A stretch of DNA of 64,000 bases from Owenia fusiformis (lineage: Eukaryota; Annelida; Polychaeta; Sabellida; Oweniidae), in the NCBI GenBank assembly GCA_903813345.2, contig CAIIXF020000006.1:35006436-35070435 (forward strand), in the 5' to 3' direction. Below are positions 1-61,200 of this stretch, piece after piece. The position numbers and the translations under genes are program-made. The notes beneath the pieces are model-generated. The model made no database searches, was not told where the DNA came from, and saw nothing but the letters and a program-made list of their open reading frames with translations. Numbering within the stretch: position 1 is the stretch's first letter; the number at the start of each line of letters is the position of its first letter.

Positions 1-220
1 TATTAAGTTTAGTTATCTTCAAAGTATTTCTACAGCAAAACATGCCTCATCCAAAACACCAGCAAAATGTGTTCAGATTGGCACATGTTCAAGGTTTTTT
101 AACATGGAACTCCAAATTAAAAAGAAAATGGAGACCTCACATTTGAAAGTTGTTCATATTAAGAGGTTTTCAAATATGGTTATACTGTATATCATTTAAA
201 GAATAAAGATTAAAACTTAC

Positions 221-3077
221 GTGCTCCACCTCTCCTGTACTGGTCTCTATCAGCACGGTCTCCACCGCGTCTGTCGGCACCTCCCTCAGCTAAAACAGAA
301 ATCCAAGAAATCTAAGTTCTTCACTTCAATAAACCTGTCATGAAAAGGAGAATCGGTTCGGATCAGAACTTTGTCTCACAGATTGGAACTTTCGGAACCC
401 CTTTCGGACCACAAATGAAAAGAAACAAAAAAGAAACGAACCTACTTGATAAGTTGATACGACAGTGTCTTGGCATAATTATATAAAAGAAGTGTAGGTT
501 GTAAAGATCTAAAGATCATTATTAAACTGATTTATTTATTTTTATCTGTGAGTGATTCCACCCCGTCGATTCCTACTTCCAGTGAAAACTGAAGGTCATA
601 GACTCAAATGGCACAGCCCTACAATGTACTAATGAACACTTTGTAGATGTGACCAAAAAAATTTAAAATATCCACACCCTCATAAAGCTAAACAAGCTTT
701 TATTTCCAGATATTGAAACATGCAATTATGAATTGAAACAAATTATGAATTTAAACACACATAGAAAATCTTGACCAGCTCAGATTTACAGGATGTGTTT
801 AGACTGTGTTCTCATCTACGATAGCACAAAACAATGTAAAATGTCAAGCACAACTAAGAGATGACACATTACTGTGGCATGAATTAATCCCCCCAGACTG
901 ACACCAATATTCAGAATGGGTCTACTGACATGCCGTTCAATGTACATGTAATAGTTGCTTTAATTTGACAGCCGTTTTGATTTGGCGGATTGATGACAAC
1001 TGCCAAATTAAGTCTCAGTCATTTTTTTTTAAATCCTAGGCAGAGATTTTTCATCCAGTTACTCGCCCTTGTGTGACCTTGCAGGATAAAAACATTTGAA
1101 AAGACCCCACCTAAATATTGAACTATTTTTGAAGATTGACGGATTCACTGCTGGTCCAGACAAAAAGATCGGATACCAAGCGAGATAAAATAGAGTTTTT
1201 AAGAGAGGGGTATTGAGGATGATCTAAAATACGACAAGTGTGTTGTTATGGACATTGATTTTTGAAAAACTAGGGCAATATTTGCATCTTTGTATGAACC
1301 CTCCAACATCCATATTTCTATGATGGGTAAATCTGCCAAATTAAATAGAAGCCAAAATTTCAAAAGTTCTCCATCCGCCAAATTCAACAGCGCCAAATAA
1401 AAGCAACAGTGGTTTGAACTATTTTTCTTCAGTAAATTGTACTTTTGTCAAACGTTTTCTTCAGTAACAGTCCTTGAAACAATTTATTCATAAAATTCAG
1501 CCAGTCAAGGCCACTGTTGATGACCGACACATCGCACAATCAATTATTTCTGCTTTTCATTACAAATGAATAGATTGAACTTACCCTTAGGTCTGGGCCT
1601 GGCAGCCTCATTTCTGGTCTGGCGTTTCAATGTGGATGGTACAATCTCTGGGGGCAGATGTAAGAAATCACGGAGATATTGGATACCCTGGTTTGTCAGG
1701 TACCAGTAGTAGTGGCGCCAGGCGAACTGTTCAGTCACCATACCACGTGATTTCAATGACTGGAATATGAAAAAGTACTTATTAGGTGTGTGACTATTTA
1801 ATAGATAAATTTTAGATGACCTGCAACCACTTGGTAGAAGTTAGACATTAGTGTGAAATGCAATGAATAAACGAAATGTGGACTGTAAGAAAACTAATAG
1901 TGCCAAAAATATAACAGTTGACATAATGTGATCAGAAATAAATGCAAAAATTCGGGTCCATGTTTGTAATTATGTCAGTGAATATGTTAACCAAACCCGT
2001 CTGGCCCAGTAATCTACTCCCGATTCTGAATTGTCGTAGATCTAGGGCCAGACAAGGTCCAATGCAAAAAAGGGGGTATTTACTCCGGAAAAAACACACT
2101 GCTGAATCATCACTTATTATTCATTCCCTATTAGCCATCCAACCAAAACATCGGGTACTATGTAAACCCAAGTATTTATTTGAAATAAAGAGAACATAAC
2201 TTACGCGTAAATGTGGTGTTTTGTTTGTTATATTGATGTTGAAATGGGCACAACATTTCGTCAATATTTCGTCAGCTCTCCGCACCGAATAAAGTCACGT
2301 GATGTGACGTAACACGAATGTGACGCGATAATTTTTTTTAACTTTCATGGAACGAAAATACATTTCCCGGGAATCAATACATTCCAAATATTACGATTTG
2401 TTCAGCAGATTTGTTATCAAAACGTAGATTACTTTATAAAACAGACGTGTCTGTGTTGTATTTAAACTGGAAAGAAATATGGTGGACATTAAATACGATT
2501 TTTCAATTTGTTGAACTGACGGAATGTAGTACTGAACGAAATAAGCAGCCGAGACTTCTCGATATTCTACGAGATCACGAACAGATTGCAGAAGAATTTT
2601 TCTTTTTGCTGCGTTTAGACGTTTCGTTCTTATTTATTAGCCGTCATCCAGCGATGGAAACCTAATATAAATACAAAGTTTGATACAAGGAACAAACACG
2701 TAAGTGATTTTTATGATGTTTATTCATTTATCAGCACGTATTATACATTGAAAAACCAGTGTGTTTTTTCCGGAGTAAATACCCCATTTTTTGCATTGGA
2801 TCGAGTCTGGCCCAGATCTACGAGGTCAGGAGTAGATAACTGGGGCAGACGGGTTTGGTTATGAATATGTATGAATTAAAAATACAAATCTACGTAGCCA
2901 TAAGAATGATATACACTCTGACGAAGACCCTACCTGTAAAGCCTTGATCACATGAAGGTTGGGCACACTTTCCAACTCTGGATGCTTTGGGGCGTTGAAG
3001 TCCTTCTTTGCAACCATAACACCCTCCTTGAAGAGGTGTTCATAGATGGCCACTCTATTCTTCTTGGGCATCAACAT
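221..3077 (-). CDS. RPS10: 40S ribosomal protein S10, 3' end outside the window
   Basis: Component of the small ribosomal subunit near the mRNA entry region. Three coding exons are visible: 3077-2934 (48 codons, begins MLMPKKNR), 1759-1585 and 289-221. Phases are 0, 1 and 1, and all sites are GT-AG. The acceptor before the first coding exon lies directly at the start codon (ttttag then GATG). Landmarks typical of eS10 are [52 protein letters not shown] and RPRPKG, followed by the Arg/Gly-rich tail region ([20 protein letters not shown]). About 129 residues are present; the family is usually about 160, so only the end of the Gly/Arg tail lies left of base 1. Intron 3 carries a decayed TIR element (954-1407). 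Identification is certain; the end of the gene is not visible. Confidence 0.97.
954..1407. mobile_element. Decayed TIR element with TTTGGCG motifs
   Basis: Left end GTTGCTTTAATTTGACAGC and right end GCGCCAAATAAAAGCAAC are imperfect inverted repeats. Internal TTTGGCGG / CCGCCAAA pairs resemble the element at 48327-48796, though the outer ends differ. It lies in RPS10 intron 3. No coding capacity is seen. Confidence 0.5.
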
Positions 3078-3509
3078 CCTAAAATTAAAGGAACAATTAA
3101 TTTCAAATCAATCAAGTATATCATGGTAAACTGACTGGACTGCAGGAAAATGCACCGTTTCAGATTCAATGATAAAGACAGATTCACACAAAAAAGGTAG
3201 TAAACTTGAGATAATGAAATTGCCTTGCATTCGAGCAAGCCTACCTTTAGAAGTTCGGACTGTTACATGACCCAAAGGAGCCGAGGAAACAAAATTGACT
3301 AAAGGAATATTTGAAAAGAAAAATCCCCAAAATATTCGGACATGCATAGTTTTATGAGCAAAATTATTGAACTTTTCAAATAGTGATGAATTAACTATTG
3401 TGAAAATCGGAAACATTACTACTCAGTCTGCTATCAAGATTACAAGTTATGTACAAAAGAAGAAGGATGGATGAGAAATCGGTCGATATTTAGAGGAGAA
3501 ATTTCGTAC

Positions 3510-3633: not shown

Positions 3634-6600
3634 ATGGACTCGAATATCAATGATGTAGACGAGAAAAAAGAAATTGACAATCTTGAGGATCTCGAGACAC
3701 TTGAACCATTACCAAAAAGAATCAAAATTGAAGAAAATGAGCCAAATGAAAAAGATGAAAAAAAATTGGGGGAAGAAATTCAAACTGAAACTCAAACTTC
3801 TCAAAATCAAGGTGAAAACAAAGACGAAGCATCAAAAGCAGCAGGTAAACATACAGAGGATCCATCAATCTTGCTTCAATTGAAGGCACAGGCCCAGGAA
3901 GATTTAAATCCCCCCCCCCCCAAGTCACTGTATAGCTAATGTAAAAAAATCTACCTAAATATAGTGAGTGGGAGGGGGATGAACTCTTGTTCCCGTGTCT
4001 GTGGTTGAAGGCGTATATCCTCTACAGACTAGCATAGTCCTGGTAACATAAATACAATTTTATTTTTTATTCTGGGAAGCAGTTCACATGGGAAAACTCC
4101 ACTAGAGGCAATCTACTACATGCGCAATTGATAACTTATAGTTTCTTTGCATTGTTTGCACTATTTGTTGAGAAGTGGATTGTTTTAATGATCTTATATG
4201 TTTTGTCATTAAAGGGCCATCTGCTCCTGCACCAACAGTAGAAGAAGCTGAAACTGGTGAGGAACAAGGGGAGGATAGCAAGCAATCTAAGAAGGAAAAG
4301 CAAGAGGAAGAACGAAAGAAAATGCAGTAAGAAAACTGTTTCAAATAGTCTTGACTTTTTTGTCAAGACGGAGTGTACTTTTTGTACATGAAAATACAGT
4401 ATGTTTTACATGTAAACTGCTGCATTGAGAATGGTTTTGTGGTAAAAGTTTTTTTAAGAAACTCCATAACCTAATACCATTTTAAAGAGGTTGACTTTCA
4501 TCTTTAAAGGACAGCCTCGTCTGCGCTCTTTCAAGTAATAATCCTTTGATCTTGCCTTAACGCATTAGAAGCCTTCAAGCATACTTTGGTCAAAATCAAC
4601 TGAACGCCTTATTGGCTAATCACTTCACCACTGACATGCATTTCAATTTTGAACTTTGAGCATGGTTTATTTAATAATGGTGATTTATGGTTATCCCTTA
4701 TACAAATTTACTGGCTGTCACAGCCCGCTGTCACAGCGCTCTCACAGCCTGCTGTCACAGCGCTCCCGCAGCACGCTGTCACAGCGCTCTCGCAGCCCGC
4801 TCTCACAGCGCTCTCGCAGCCCGCTGTCACAGCGCTCTCACAGCCCGCTGTCACAGCGCTGCGACAGCGCTCTCACAGCGCTGTGACAGCGCTCTCAAAG
4901 CGCTGTGACAGCCCATCGGAATGTACCATGCAAATGAGGCTGCGACAGCGCTGTCACAGCATTGCCATATATGGCATTGATTATGTATCCTTCATACACA
5001 TAAATCTTAATTACCTATAGCCTATAAATTTAAATATCTTTAAAACGTTCCAAATTATAAATTTCAAATTCAGCATGGAAAAAGTAGATTCTAGGCTTGT
5101 AATACTAGTAATAGGTAATCAAAATTAAAAAATAGCTGTTACATCTTACCAGTCACACTGTTAAACCTGGCCAGTCACTATTTTTGCTGCATACATACCA
5201 ATATTAATATGAATCCCATTAACGAAATTAATAACTCTATTTGACTAGTTGACTAAACGTTAATAAGAAACGATTTTAAAAATATGGGTTGAAATTGGAG
5301 TGCCTGCTAAGGGGAGCAATTATTAGCTATTTCTTTTGTTTCCAACCTTTATTATTACCAGTTATTACCACCTTGCCGGGCCAGTTCTAGGGGTTTTAGT
5401 GCTAGTTTAGAAGGCATTCATTTTTTTACTATATCGACCTGAGAAATGTGTGACGTCATAGTGGTGGTCCATATGGACCGGTCTAGAATATATTCTGGAC
5501 CGGCAATTTTTCCCCGGGAAATTAGATATCGTTCAATGCGTAAGATTTTCTTGCTATTTCAGCCCTGGTTGTCAACGGTGGTTATAATACTAATAACGTC
5601 ATTTCTGCGAGCAATATAGTGAAATATTGGACCTTGGGCCTTCGGCCCTCGGCCCAATATTTCACTATATTGCCCTTAGAAATGACGTTATTGTACTATT
5701 ATTTGACAAGTTTCATAAACAATTACTCTCTTTGACTTGATCGACTTAGCTTACATTTGCCAATCCAACTGCTGGTTGTTGGCTGATGGATTAACCTACT
5801 AATTCATGACCAACTCATTTATATTCATATTTAAATGAACTGGCCATGAAATTAGCTGGAGTTTGTTTTCCTTATGACTGGCAGGAGAGGGAGGAGGGGT
5901 GAACCAACTGTGAATTTTCTGAAAGGTGACCCCCCCATTGGCTTCAGGCCCAACATGTTTTTTTCTTATGTCTGGATGGGTTCTGCAACAATTTTTGGTC
6001 CTTTCCTTTGGCATTTTTGCATACATATTTAAAGTCATTTAACCCATTCAACTTATCAAATGTGAACCAACCTGGAATTTTCTGAAATTATAAAGTTCAT
6101 CTGCAAGTCTTTATATGGACATATAGTTTATATGGACTATATACATTGATATTTCAGACTTCTAGTTTAACCAGTACTAACTTGCACAAAATTCATATCA
6201 TTTGATCCTTTTCCTTAGATCACTAAAACATTCCAAAGGTATCTATAAATAATCAGTAGTACAATACCTTACATGTGCTTTATAAATCAGTAATGATATA
6301 ATGGCCATTTCAGCATAATTCCTTTGCTTTTTCCTCCTACAAACTTCCTGCTCTAACTGATTTTCAGTTTGAATTTTTTAACCCACAATGCATTGGTACT
6401 TCCTGCTGTGAGAGGGCTGTGAGAGGGCTGTGAGAGCGCTGTGAGAGCGCTGCCACAAACTCTGGCTAAGATAGCATGTTGCTGTAATTGATCCAGCCAC
6501 TTTATTACTGTCACATCCCTCTCGCAGCGATGGATGGAAATACAATGCTGTGACAGCGCTCTCACAGCGTTCTCGCAGCGTATGGATGTGAGAGCATTGT

Positions 6601-9600
6601 CGCTGAAATTGATCCAGCCATCAGTTTAAGCCTATATGCTGTCACAGCGCTGCGACAGCGCTGTGGCAGCGCTGTCACAGCTTTTATTTTCCGTAAGGGA
6701 TGATATCAAAGCCATGACCACTGGACTCTGACTTGACCCTTCTATTGATTGTACATGTTAGAAAATAGTGTCCTCTCAGTGACAAAGTGAGAGGAGTTCA
6801 GTTGAGGGATATTTTGATTTATACAGGTTTTACTGTACAAGGAAGATAATAGGGAGTTTAAGCTCGCAATGTTTTTCACAACCTAAACGTGAACGGAAAA
6901 TATTTAAGCGATGCATTTGTATGGACAATTGGTCATATGTATAGGTTGATCTTTTGACTTTATATGCAAGCCTAAACGCAACCTGATGGTTAGGGATTGT
7001 TAGATGTTGTTCATTATGGATATGCATTTATCTTCTGTTTCAGGGTTCTTGTGTCCAACTTCTCAGAGGATCAGCTAAACAGGTATGAGATGTACAGACG
7101 AGCAGCTTTCCCAAAGGCGGCAATCAAGAAGGTATGGAAAGTTTCATTTCTTACTTGTAGTTACATGTATGACTTACAGTTTTGTTGTTTGATGTTTCTA
7201 AGCTCATGGAATTTGATTTTTTTTTTTTTAAATTTTGAATGCAGTAAGACCTGTGTACGTGGATTACCTTTGGTACTAAAATATATTCCACTTAGAAGGT
7301 GTTCCATTACAGAGATGCATTTTACATTAAATTAATGACATCCCCTTTACAGATTTTACTGTATTGTATTAAATAATTATTGTGTAATAGCAAGCAATTA
7401 GATGAACATACTTGTTAAATTCCAACGACTGAAGACTATTTTTGAGTCATGTGTTACATCATGGGCTTTCAATTAGATCTTACAGGGCTGATTGTATTAG
7501 ATTTGCCCACTGTGTCAAACGTATTTAGCTGACCAGAAGTTGTCTAGTCCTAATTTCCCTCTTCTTATTAATTATACGTAGTTACTAATACAAATTCATT
7601 GTTACAGTTGATGTCATCAGTGACAGGATCTATATCATCACAGAATGTTGTCATAGCAATGGCATCATATATGCTTTACTAATACAAATGCATTGTTATT
7701 GTGTGTTACAGTTGATGTCTTCAGTGACAGGATCTATATCATCACAGAATGTTGTCATAGCAATGGCATCATATATGCTTTACTAATACAAATCCATTGT
7801 TATTGTGTGTTACAGTTGATGTCTTCAGTGACAGGATCTATACCATCACAGAATGTTGTCATAGCAATGGCATCATATATGCTTTACTAATACAAATCCA
7901 TTGTTATTGTGTGTTACAGTTGATGTCTTCAGTGACAGGATCTATACCATCACAGAATGTTGTCATAGCAATGGCATCATATATGCTTTACTAATACAAA
8001 TCCATTGTTATTGTGTGTTACAGTTGATGTCTTCAGTGACAGGATCTATATCATCACAGAATGTTGTCATAGCAATGGCATCATATATGCTATACTAATA
8101 CAAATGCATTGTTATTGTGTGTTACAGTTGATGTCTTCAGTGACAGGATCTATACCATCACAGAATGTTGTCATAGCAATGGCATCATATATGCTTTACT
8201 AATACAAATGCATTGTTATTGTGTGTTACAGTTGATGTCTTCAGTGACAGGATCTATACCATCACAGAATGTTGTCATAGCAATGGCATCATATATGCTT
8301 TACTAATACAAATCCATTGTTATTGTGTGTTACAGTTGATGTCTTCAGTGACAGGATCTATATCATCACAGAATGTTGTCATAGCAATGGCATCATATAT
8401 GCTTTACTAATACAAATGCATTGTTATTGTGTGTTACAGTTGATGTCTTCAGTGACAGGATCTATATCATCACAGAATGTTGTCATAGCAATGGCATCAT
8501 ATATGCTTTACTAATACAAATCCATTGTTATTGTGTGTTACAGTTGATGTCTTCAGTGACAGGATCTATACCATCACAGAATGTTGTCATAGCAATGGCA
8601 TCATATATGCTATACTAATACAAATGCATTGTTATTGTGTGTTACAGTTGATGTCTTCAGTGACAGGATCTATACCATCACAGAATGTTGTCATAGCAAT
8701 GGCATCATATATGCTTTACTAATACAAATCCATTGTTATTGTGTGTTACAGTTGATGTCTTCAGTGACAGGATCTATACCATCACAGAATGTTGTCATAG
8801 CAATGGCATCATATATGCTTTACTAATACAAATCCATTGTTATTGTGTGTTACAGTTGATGTCTTCAGTGACAGGATCTATACCATCACAGAATGTTGTC
8901 ATAGCAATGGCAGGCATATCCAAAGTTTTTGTTGGAGAACTTGTCGAAGAAGGTATGGTTTATTATGTAGTTGATGTAGTTTAATTGGAAGCTTTCATTT
9001 GACACCTTAAACATCTCAAACGAGACATATCGTAGATTAAGCCCCATTGACACTGACTGGTCTTTTTTGATCCCCTGTGTATTTCCAATGGAGGGAAAGA
9101 CCACTAAACTTTACTTTTACATTTTATGGAATAGGAAGTAGGTGGCATTGTGCGCAGAGCACTGACACTTATTGGCAGACATTAACATTGAAACAATATT
9201 ATCAATTTGAAAATGATTGTGCTAATTTGTATCTATGAACATAACACTTCTCCTTTTATATTATCTTGAAAAATAGATGTCAGCATTACATTGTATATAA
9301 ATTGTTTGGTGAACCTTGAACCTTTGAAGACACAATAAAAATTAATCTCTTAATCTTTACAAAACTAGTACCGATACAGATCTTTGAACTTCTCATGCCG
9401 TTTTCTTTTTTTTGCCCGAGGAAAGGTTTGTTTATTATTCAATTGACTGTGTGAGTGATGATGAGTTTCTACTTATTCATTATCACATATTTTTTCATTT
9501 TTATGTCACTGCCAGAAATGGTGACATATTGTTATAGTCTCCAACTGTTTTGGCCAGTTTTTGGCAATTGGTGTTTGGCATTTGGGGTCTGTAACAGCAG

Positions 9601-9812
9601 TCAGCATCTGTAACAAATGGCAGGTGGTGACATTTTGCATGTTAATGCCTTGTATATATTTTACCTTTTATTCATTTCCAGCCTTAAATGTGATCGAACA
9701 GTGGAATGAGAAGCCACCTATACAACCTAAGCACCTGAGGGAAGCAACAAGGAGGCTTAAACACAAAGGACTGTTTCCAAACTCTAAACACAAACAGAAA
9801 TTATTCTTATAA
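3634..9812 (+). CDS. TAF11: Transcription initiation factor TFIID subunit 11
   Basis: Histone-fold subunit of TFIID that pairs with TAF13. Five exons: 3634-3844, 4215-4326, 7044-7131, 8856-8952, 9682-9812. Phases 1, 2, 0, 1 join cleanly, giving 212 residues, close to the usual length of about 211. The N-terminal part (residues 1-107) is acidic, Lys/Glu-rich and poorly conserved. Conserved core motifs are [20 protein letters not shown] and FPKAAIKK (exon 3), [20 protein letters not shown] (exon 4) and [12 protein letters not shown] with PNSKHK (exon 5). The start is the ATG at 3634; the frame is open further upstream but has no earlier ATG. Intron 2 holds a foldback-like element, and intron 3 ends in twelve 104-bp units that each copy the acceptor and part of exon 4. 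Only the exon 4 at 8856 continues into GISKVF and has a donor. Confidence 0.96.
4695..6699. mobile_element. Foldback-like element with AGCGCT arrays in both arms
   Basis: The left end (CCCTTATACAAATTTACTGG) and right end (inverted: CCCTTACGGAAAATAAAAGC) match at CCCTTA, share an A/T-rich spacer, and both lead into tandem arrays whose units carry AGCGCT and CTGTCACAGC. The left array (about 4719-4965) has a period near 24 bp; the right array (about 6405-6682) is its inverted counterpart, seen as CTGTGAGAGCGCT. The 1.4 kb interior has no transposase frame and holds a separate palindrome (5593-5695). The whole lies in TAF11 intron 2. At most 2 bp (AT) of target duplication can be proposed. Confidence 0.6.
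5593..5695. repeat. About 100-bp near-perfect palindrome
   Basis: AATAACGTCATTTCTGCGAG and GCAATATAGTGAAATATTGG are followed, after a short GGGCCTTCGGCCC-type centre, by their reverse complements (CCAATATTTCACTATATTGC, then AGAAATGACGTTATT). Arms are roughly 45 bp, with mismatches only beside the outer block. As RNA or single-stranded DNA this would form one long hairpin. It may be a small palindromic element nested in the larger one. Confidence 0.75.
7242..7361. mobile_element. Small TIR element, CAGTAAAACCTGT family
   Basis: Begins CAGTAAGACCTGTG and ends AGATTTTACTG, with internal text (TTTGGTAC, GTGTTCC) shared with a related sequence starting near 57440 (CAGTTAAACCTGTGTAAAG). It lies just upstream of the acceptor array in TAF11 intron 3. 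The ends suggest a Tc1/mariner or pogo-type non-autonomous element; a TA duplication is not clear here. Confidence 0.45.
7608..8855 (+). repeat. Twelve tandem 104-bp copies of the TAF11 intron-3 acceptor plus partial exon 4
   Basis: Exon-like starts (TTGATGTC) occur at 7608, 7712, 7816, 7920, 8024, 8128, 8232, 8336, 8440, 8544, 8648, 8752 and finally 8856, exactly 104 bp apart. Each unit holds about 55 bp of exon 4 (through ATAGCAATGGCA) and then TCATATATGCTTTACTAATA, a spacer and TTGTGTGTTACAG. So each unit carries a branch-point-like TACTAAT and an AG acceptor but no good donor. Units differ at only a few positions (ATC/ACC, GCATT/CCATT, CTTTAC/CTATAC), which points to recent expansion or homogenisation. 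The acceptor of the first unit is 10 bp shorter (it lacks TTGTGTG-type sequence) and that unit has TCATCAG instead of TCTTCAG; it is probably nearest the founder. Confidence 0.95.
9501..9656. repeat. Dispersed repeat, TATGTCACCACCAAAA family (copy 1)
   Basis: Starts TTTTATGTCACTGCCAGAAA, continues GGTGACATATTGTTATAGTC and ends GGTGGTGACATTTTGCATG. Related copies lie at about 26463-26590 (minus), 49914-50275, 52782-52914, 54790-54935 (poor) and 56089-56236. The two ends of each copy are partly inverted (TGTCACCACC / GGTGGTGACA), so it may be a small TIR element. This copy sits in TAF11 intron 4. Confidence 0.55.
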
Positions 9813-58200: not shown

Positions 58201-61200
58201 AATTTGGGCTTTAATCCTTTATTCATAAAGACAGTAGTTACCCAGTATTCCTCAACGGTGCTTGTGGAGTAGGTATTGGCCCATTTGCGACTTCTCATAG
58301 CTGAGTTTTACAACCTAGAGAGTCGATCATGGAACCCAGAAATTGCATTGTTTGCTCCAATGAGGTGCAGGGCATGAGAGAACTCATGCAGAACTATATC
58401 TTGCTTATATCTATCATTGGGAAGACATCGAGCATTCTCCTCCCCAGCGGTAGAAACAGGCTGTGCCCACGTAGCTCCCAGACCCCTTGCTCTCTCATTC
58501 CACCATGCTGGGAGATTGCTGTGCTCAGGAATACTTGTTGTGCCTTCATTGACGCCAATTATTGCTACACGGCCCCCAGCTTTGTAAAATGCATTCCTGA
58601 TGTCGGATCTGTCTGCCAGCATAAACCTGAGTGTATAGCATGCTCGCTTCAAGGCATCATTGCTTACTTGGTTAGAACCTAAATGATAGATGCAACAAGA
58701 GTACACCAATACCTCTCTTCATTTGCATCATTTTAATACATAGCATCATCTAAAGTATTGGACATAACATCATATAATGAAGGTTTCCTGTTTTATAGTC
58801 ACTTTTATATTTCTTAAATACCACAGGCCCGAGTTGATTCATTTGGGGGTCTTTGCAAATTTAAATCTGTAAAATATTGTTATGAACAACTACAAAAACC
58901 TTTTAAAGGTCCCCTAGTCTGCACAATTTCTTGATGCTCCTCAACCTGAAATAAAAAGCTCTCACTTACTGACAACTGGTATGTCATAGGCCTCAGTGTA
59001 TTTCTGATAGAATGATGTCAGTCCCTTTGGGTACATATGTGTTCCACTTCTTAATTTGCTTGGTACCCCGCGTATGTTACCACAACTGTTGGAGTTTGTT
59101 GGGCTTCCTGGTCTGTTGCCTCCATAGTAGAGACTGCTGTCTGTTGAGATTTAAAGATTCATACTAGCTGACATGTGTCAAATGATCAATGGAAAATGAT
59201 GTGATATTGATGGAAAATGTGACCCAGCTAAGGCTTAAAATGATGTGATATTGATGGAAAATGTGACCCAACAGCTAAGGCTTAAAATGATGTCATATTG
59301 ATGGAAGATGTGACCCATCAGCTAAGGCTTAAAATGATGTGATATTGATAGAAAATGTGGCCCAGCTAAGGCGTAAAATGATGTGATATTGATGGAAAAT
59401 GTGGCCCAGCTAAGGCGAAAAATGATGTGATATTGATAGAAAATGTGATCCATCTGCTAAGGCTTAAAATGATGTGATATTCAAAGAAAATGTGACCCAG
59501 CTAAGGCTTAAAATGATGTGATATTGATAGAAAATGTGACCCAGCTAAGGCTTAAAATGATGTGATATTGATAGAAAATGTGACCCAGCTAAGGCTTAAA
59601 ATGATGTGATATTGATAGAAAATGTGACCCAGCTAAGGCTTAAAATGATGTGATATTGATAGAAAATGTGGCCCAGCTAAGGCGTAAAATGATGTGATAT
59701 TGATAGAAAATGTGACCCAGCTAAGGCGTAAAATGATGTGATATTGATGGAAAATGTGGCCCAGCTAAGGCGTAAAATGATGTGATATTGATAGAAAATG
59801 TGATCCATCTGCTAAGGCTTAAAATGATGTGATATTGATAGAAAATGTGACCCAGCTAAGGCTTAAAATGATATGATATTGATAGAAAATTTGACCTAGC
59901 TAAGGCTTAAAATGATGTGATATTGATAGAAAATGTGACCCAGCTAAGGCTTAAAATGATGTGATATTGATAGAAAATGTGACCCAGCAAAGGCTTTTAA
60001 GGATGCAATTTGGAATAGTTGATGCATAACAAGATGAACTAATAGTGTGCGCCAAAACTCAAGAAAATCCCATTAACTGATGTTGAGGTAGGTTACTATG
60101 ATTTGACCCATAGTCAATATAGATTGGTTCATTGACTATTCATTTTTACTTGTCTGCACTCAAAAAAGTGACACGAAAGGGCTAAACGGCTTGCCCCAAG
60201 GTGCAACCGTCAAAAAGATGAGTTTGACAAAAATATTTTTTTTCAAATAATAGCAGCGAGTATATGAAATAGGAGGCAAATTTGAAATTGATATGTATGA
60301 TAGTCCATTTGGGTGTGGTCATTTTTATTAAAAACAATAATATTGAAGAATTATACATTTCTGACCTTAAAATGCCATTTTAATGCAAAAGTCACGGTTG
60401 CTATTAATTATATTCCTATTTTACCTATTTAATGTTTTCTATATATTACACTTACCATTATATTCATTTTTGGCAAAGTAATTAATAATGGGGCTCACAC
60501 AAGGATCCACTTTATTTACAACTTTTTCATATTTAGTGATGTTTTGAAAAATTACTACGTTTAACAGAAAATTATTTGTTAAATGTTAAACAAAATAATG
60601 ATTATGTGTTTGTTTCGTTGTTTCAACTGAAAAATGACAATTCATTGCTCTTGATCTTAGAGCGGCAGGGCATATACCAGTACGACCAATCTTCAATACA
60701 GATGATCCTTGTGTGATCCCTACTATTATTTACTTTGTCAAAAACTAATATAATGGTTTTTCAGATATGTGAAAATCATTTGATAGTCAAAATAAGAATA
60801 ATATAATTGACTTTTGAATAATAAAGCATTATAGAGTCAGAAGTACCAAATTTGTACCATAATTGTAGCGTGGCTGCTAGTTAAGGCGGTAGAGCATCAG
60901 AATCTAGATTAGAAGGTACTAGGTTTGGTTCCCACAAACAGAGAATTACCACACAACTCCCCGAAGGAACCCTCGGGTCCTTACAGAGTGCCATATTTGC
61001 ATATTAAAGTAAATAGACGATTTTGCCATCCTCCCGCCATGTTCTTGTGTATGTTTACAATACTAGCAATCTACTGTTCGAGTCGGTCACAGCAGCCCCA
61101 CATGGCCTTAAAAATAATTCCAAATACCTGGCTATTGACTTTTGACCTTTTCTGATGCATGACATGAAATAGCCCAAATGCCTTAAAAGGCTTACCTAGA

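Follow-up and report, generated by a model that had tools for sequence, protein, structure and literature searches.

A minisatellite across the intron 3-exon 4 boundary of TAF11 in Owenia fusiformis and comparable splice-site arrays in other genes

Minisatellites that span an exon-intron boundary have been described in amphioxus under the name of mirages; the available text of the report places them in the globin genes BflGb6 and BflGb9 and cites Adh3 (PMC3087553). In BflGb6, the end of the intron and the start of the exon are duplicated; one haplotype has 6 units and another has 3. In the same text the authors take RT-PCR and Adh3 data as a sign of undisturbed regular splicing. Boundary minisatellites in human segmental duplications are said in the accessible part of PMC2812944 to alter gene structure and are linked there to intron gain. 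For an annelid, the accessible part of PMC12783039 describes exon-4 duplications and intron-1 minisatellites in an earthworm metallothionein gene. The published assembly of the annelid Owenia fusiformis comprises 505.8 Mb in 12 chromosome-scale scaffolds, and the available text of its description makes no mention of such arrays (PMC9977687); transcriptomes of the species are also described there. Searches of open-licence literature on repeats and splicing listed no report of boundary-spanning arrays in any spiralian. Here, we describe one in the O. fusiformis gene for TAF11 and compare it with arrays in other genes of this genome.

The DNA analyzed (the window) is a stretch of 64,000 nt, C6:35006436-35070435 in a 498-Mb assembly; mitochondrial COX1 was sought and not found. 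TAF11 has five coding exons, beginning with an ATG at 3634 and finishing with a stop whose last base is 9812, separated by introns of 370-2717 nt; the joined translation is intact and gives a product of 212 residues. The gene was identified by the match of its C-terminal 104 residues to TFIID subunit 11 (PDB; E value, 2.4e-47). Features are listed below in window coordinates; decoys are the upstream copies of the exon 4 acceptor.

3634..3844, plus strand: TAF11 coding exon 1, from the ATG (intact 212-residue joined translation)
4215..4326, plus strand: exon 2 (joined translation)
7044..7131, plus strand: exon 3, where the histone fold begins, with donor AAG/GTATGG (joined translation)
7583..7607, plus strand: branch-like motif and acceptor in front of the first unit (TACTAAT...TTGTTACAG), shorter by 10 nt than the others; matrix score 3.0, exceeding 7% of the 46 acceptors sampled
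7608..8855, plus strand: minisatellite of 12 units of 104 bp, each made of 57 bp of exon 4, filler, TACTAAT and the TTACAG acceptor (TRF and unit comparison)
8821..8855, plus strand: branch-like motif and acceptor of real exon 4, the same in sequence as the decoys; score 6.3, exceeding 24% of the same 46
8856..8952, plus strand: real exon 4, 97 nt, with donor AAG/GTATGG at 8953 (behind the sole acceptor that lets the reading continue)
9682..9812, plus strand: exon 5, including the stop (C terminus matches TFIID subunit 11)

A gene that, from its peptide, we take to be RPS10-like occupies 200-3110 on the minus strand, head to head with TAF11, and the two possibly have a promoter in common. Intron 2 of TAF11 holds CACAGC/GCTGTG-type repeats of 11 and 24 bp, in partly opposite orientations, at 4714-4914 and 6405-6681. 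Elsewhere in the window, at 59193-59996, lies a 44-bp minisatellite of about 18 copies with no link to a known exon. A second TAF11 gene is present at about 10.29 Mb (C6:10292331-10297299, L004); its C-terminal part is intact (E value, 3.8e-39 against TFIID subunit 11), and three intron positions in the conserved part are, by eye, the same as in the first gene. By eye, its intron 3 holds a retrotransposon of Ty3/gypsy appearance; no comparable splice-site array was found in this gene.

The array before exon 4 has a TRF score of 2535. TTGATGTC starts 13 times, from 7608 to 8856, at an exact 104-bp period, the 13th start being real exon 4. A first-pass annotation had described twelve exact units; the array is real and of that size, but only 5 of the 12 units equal the commonest one, the other 7 carrying one to three substitutions. 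That annotation gave the duplicated part of exon 4 as 55 bp, which we measured as 57 bp, and noted correctly that TACTAAT and TTACAG occur in each unit. It also spoke of thirteen identical acceptors, and here the first one departs: it lacks 10 nt (TATTGTGTGT), which sets the presumed branch point 19 nt from the AG as against 29 nt elsewhere. The final 24 nt of acceptors 2 to 13 are identical except at one C/G position. The first unit combines three substitutions with a shorter acceptor region, and inner unit 5 also has three substitutions. No evidence of block duplication came from the order of the unit types (shuffle test, p 0.75). A DNA search of the assembly, in which the lack of a match is no proof of absence, found neither the 104-bp unit elsewhere nor a second haplotype copy.

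It is highly improbable that the real genome holds just one or a few units and that the assembly has multiplied them. The analysis used a single assembly, and repeat counts can be misassembled; against this, the units have shared as well as private substitutions, the first has its own 10-nt difference, and 15 other arrays built of different units, listed below, show match levels of 76-100% where TRF measured them.

Acceptor choice determines the predicted product. All 12 upstream acceptors lead to one product of 161 residues, which ends in AMASYMLY before a TAA lying within TACTAAT and would stop inside the part aligned with TFIID subunit 11. The full 212 residues come only from the acceptor ending at 8855. 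Both points had been read correctly in the first-pass annotation. For each of the 12 decoys, the premature stop precedes the last exon junction by 126-1270 nt; under the usual distance rule of nonsense-mediated decay, such transcripts are predicted to be degraded.

Acceptors were scored with a matrix built from 46 acceptors of the O. fusiformis genome, chosen automatically near match starts in 56 loci, with strands correct. The first TAF11 acceptor scored 3.0 and the others that were scored 6.3; apart from the first, decoy and real acceptors score equally, and the real acceptor is therefore no stronger than the decoys. Since 11 decoys share its local sequence, apart from single positions, as well as its score, nothing local hides them. 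Equal acceptors and decay-prone products would suit the proposal, made in the first-pass annotation, that most transcripts are cut: each decoy would take a share of them, and unit number would set the amount of full-length TAF11, the remainder being cut at 161 residues and degraded. We nevertheless consider this unlikely, and the proposal finds no support in the wider comparison. The same layout occurs in four other, unrelated gene families. Some decoys would not truncate (4 of 100 in ten arrays). The 5'-most acceptor, which a first-come rule would favor, is the weakest of those scored. The second, intact TAF11 gene also argues against it, as lost output of the first could be buffered. In amphioxus, there are haplotypes with 6 and 3 units, and RT-PCR gave no hint of disturbed splicing, with the caveat that the cDNA listed for BflGb6 is a partial one (PMC3087553, available text).

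Other arrays were sought with TRF in 56 loci, the best 14 of 48 homeobox, 20 of 92 myosin and 22 of 144 kinesin matches, and in 20 chaperonin (CCT) loci, the best of 60 matches. Most of the TRF rows were inspected, so array counts are lower bounds. The 76 sampled loci of these four gene families contain at least 14 distinct boundary arrays; with TAF11 and a kinesin gene on C2, the total is 16, made up of 11 acceptor-side and 5 donor-side arrays. The 15 besides TAF11 are as follows, with the real site included in each site count.

Hox gene, acceptor side: 14 acceptor sites, period about 76 bp
Kinesin gene on C2 (from the kinesin match table), acceptor side: 18 acceptors, 159 bp
Kinesin gene, acceptor side: 25 acceptors, 64 bp
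Kinesin gene, acceptor side: 4 acceptors, 93 bp
Gene of the 93-bp kinesin array, acceptor side: a further array, of 42-bp units, ahead of a different exon
Myosin gene L060, C4:24504887-24506826, acceptor side: 16 units, period 122 bp, each comprising an entire exon of 103 bp and 19 nt more
Myosin gene, acceptor side: 5 acceptors, 61 bp
CCT L098, acceptor side: passes the period and copy filter
CCT L103, C11:134945-135344, acceptor side: 96-bp units with no stops; passes the filter
CCT L104, acceptor side: 2 copies, below the filter, spans the boundary
Kinesin gene on C12 (L069:1-861 and L086), donor side: at least 44 copies of the donor AAG/GTATGC and exon edge, 61-bp units
Myosin gene L049, donor side: 4 donor copies, with only about 4-5 exonic nt repeated with the donor; the weakest of the 16
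CCT L099, donor side: passes the filter
CCT L093, donor side: 2 copies, below the filter, spans the boundary
CCT L092, donor side: degraded 48-bp units, below the filter, spans the boundary

The kinesin array on C12 is the largest splice-site array among those found, and its count is a minimum, as it runs to the end of the fetched sequence. One decoy site of the Hox array has lost its AG; the Hox cluster of this genome includes members with what we take to be Lox5-, Lox4- and Lox2-type motifs, presumably spiralian signatures. The CCT acceptor-side arrays have 9, 4 and 2 sites. For the chaperonin loci, the criterion was written beforehand and two to three arrays were expected; five arrays pass the filter and three of these span a boundary, in line with that expectation. 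Among the 56 loci sampled first, 11 arrays have a period of at least 50 and at least three copies, and 6 of these span a boundary; this figure was obtained post hoc with overlapping TRF rows collapsed by hand, and since these loci were centered on exons, it says nothing about enrichment. Two candidates were left uncounted: L046, an ambiguous array 24 nt past an exon match, and L074, a degraded repeat at an exon edge in which the GT is gone from the copies. Nearly exact arrays occur alongside two degraded ones (76-79% matches), which suggests birth and decay.

In 15 of the 16 arrays, the sole intact copy is the one at the exon end and the array lies on its intron side. The exception is myosin L060, which is a point against this layout, as 14 of its 16 copies are a whole open exon followed by GT. 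The 19 nt between neighboring copies there look too short for an intron, given the minimum length that introns require.

The decoys of ten of the 11 acceptor-side arrays were also read onward with no further splicing. Of 100 decoys, 96 meet a stop; the other 4, one in the Hox gene and all three of CCT L103, stay open in frame as far as the real exon. Myosin L060 contributes 15 units to the 96, and 13 of those are open up to their own GT. A poison design is therefore not general, and poison by every decoy was dropped as a rule. Since the CCT L103 decoys are all in frame into the real exon, their use is possible; it would insert multiples of 32 residues. A first acceptor weaker than the last was likewise dropped as a rule, as it holds in only 5 of 10 scored acceptor-side arrays (the 42-bp array lay outside the scoring), and is kept for TAF11 alone.

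The TAF11 decoys might also be normally silent and be opened by a splicing factor in some tissue or stage, switching TAF11 off. Every TAF11 unit carries a stop, and a below-average acceptor (24th percentile) could be regulated; on the other side, the units have diverged little (0-3 changes) and arrays of this type are common in this genome, so that we regard such a switch as very unlikely.

In a mutually exclusive exon cluster, each copy has an acceptor, a donor and an open, diverged coding sequence. Splicing of each TAF11 unit as a separate exon, as in arthropod myosin, would fit the acceptor that each unit owns, and clusters of that kind are likely present in this genome, in a myosin and in a GSK3-like kinase. 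The TAF11 units themselves differ by only 0-3 changes, bear a stop each and have no convincing donor: their donor-like sites agree with at most 6 of the 9 donor consensus positions, the four real donors of the gene agreeing with 7, 5, 7 and 7. The TAF11 array was accordingly rejected as such a cluster, and we hold this reading to be extremely improbable.

About 12 exon-sized matches to myosin head positions of about 18-84 stand in a row at C9:37986009-37994334 on the minus strand; this looks like a large alternative-exon cluster of a muscle-type myosin. At C10:2256896-2257205 (L084), a kinase named GSK3-like by eye carries one exon in two diverged versions that are separated by about 47 nt, probably mutually exclusive exons. 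This pair (C10:2256896/2257074), the one close pair examined in a kinase table of 144 rows read by eye, was considered as an array and set aside as a diverged alternative-exon pair.

We have good confidence that the TAF11 array is a mirage, a minisatellite over the 3' end of intron 3 and the beginning of exon 4 that is tolerated and whose copy number is probably near neutral. Tandem duplication at an exon edge would add copies on the intron side and so enlarge the intron. Under exon definition, splice sites are paired across a short exon. This mode is assumed for TAF11 from its intron lengths and from earlier work; it would pair a donor with the nearest acceptor, and only real exon 4 has a donor nearby, 97 nt away. 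The 12 upstream copies would then be spliced out as intron. In donor-side arrays, the first copy keeps an acceptor nearby and would be the one selected. The most likely basis for tolerance of the arrays is that, among competing splice sites, the one closest to its partner across the exon prevails. Rare use of an upstream acceptor would yield truncated, decay-prone RNA at a small cost. Both kinds of array would amount to harmless intron, free to expand and decay, and the TRF match levels fit continuous turnover. It is a tentative further suggestion that this genome is pervaded by splice-site minisatellites seeded at exon edges (in CCT, TAF11, Hox and motor genes), with introns that grow outward, unusually strict exon definition and copy number that may tune some outputs.

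As many as 25 acceptors, or 44 donors or more, of the same or nearly the same sequence follow one another at a single exon, and several conserved genes have such series. Such serial sites differ mainly in their distance to the partner site, which makes them a natural test of position in splice-site choice; counts of junction reads would weigh exon definition against first-come or scanning models. The arrays also suggest a concrete route of intron growth and a possible origin of erroneous gene models for this species.

NAGNAG-type tandem acceptors lie a few nucleotides apart and have one branch site in common. The TAF11 array was rejected as a case of these, with its 104-nt spacing and a TACTAAT for each acceptor. 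Human IFI6 (6-16) reportedly has a minisatellite of splice donors with short donor-like units; both genes multiply a splice signal, and TAF11 repeats the whole boundary with branch motif and acceptor. The repeats in human segmental duplications average 30-bp units in 4 copies, occur in paralogues of recent origin and fall within coding sequence in half of the cases (PMC2812944, accessible part), whereas the TAF11 array repeats 104 bp 12 times ahead of an exon, in a conserved gene that still encodes its full protein. The earthworm metallothionein gene resembles TAF11 as an annelid gene with duplicated exon pieces, which its authors do not detect in the final transcript; unlike for the TAF11 units, the available text makes no statement that its minisatellite units span a splice site (PMC12783039).

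The closest likeness is to the amphioxus mirages. Two structural features define the kind, and the TAF11 array has both: the unit spans the exon-intron boundary, with 57 exonic and 47 further nt per 104 bp, and the authentic boundary is the end copy, the last copy alone reaching a donor. According to the available text on amphioxus, a tandem unit likewise spans the boundary there, with the authentic copy at one end in BflGb6; mirages show concerted evolution inside and divergent edge units, and, as in this genome, both acceptor-side and donor-side cases occur (PMC3087553). Length polymorphism between haplotypes or somatic instability is a further mark of mirages; the assembly showed the TAF11 array in one haplotype. 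The reported mirages are those of cephalochordates, whereas the host here is an annelid, in keeping with its Hox motifs, and the arrays affect several conserved gene families. A search for the GFP family, a weak test of cephalochordate origin, found none. Compared with the 6 and 3 units of BflGb6, TAF11 has 12 decoys and one kinesin gene at least 44 donors. What is new thus seems to be the taxon, the copy number and the frequency of the arrays, the kind itself being already known from amphioxus.
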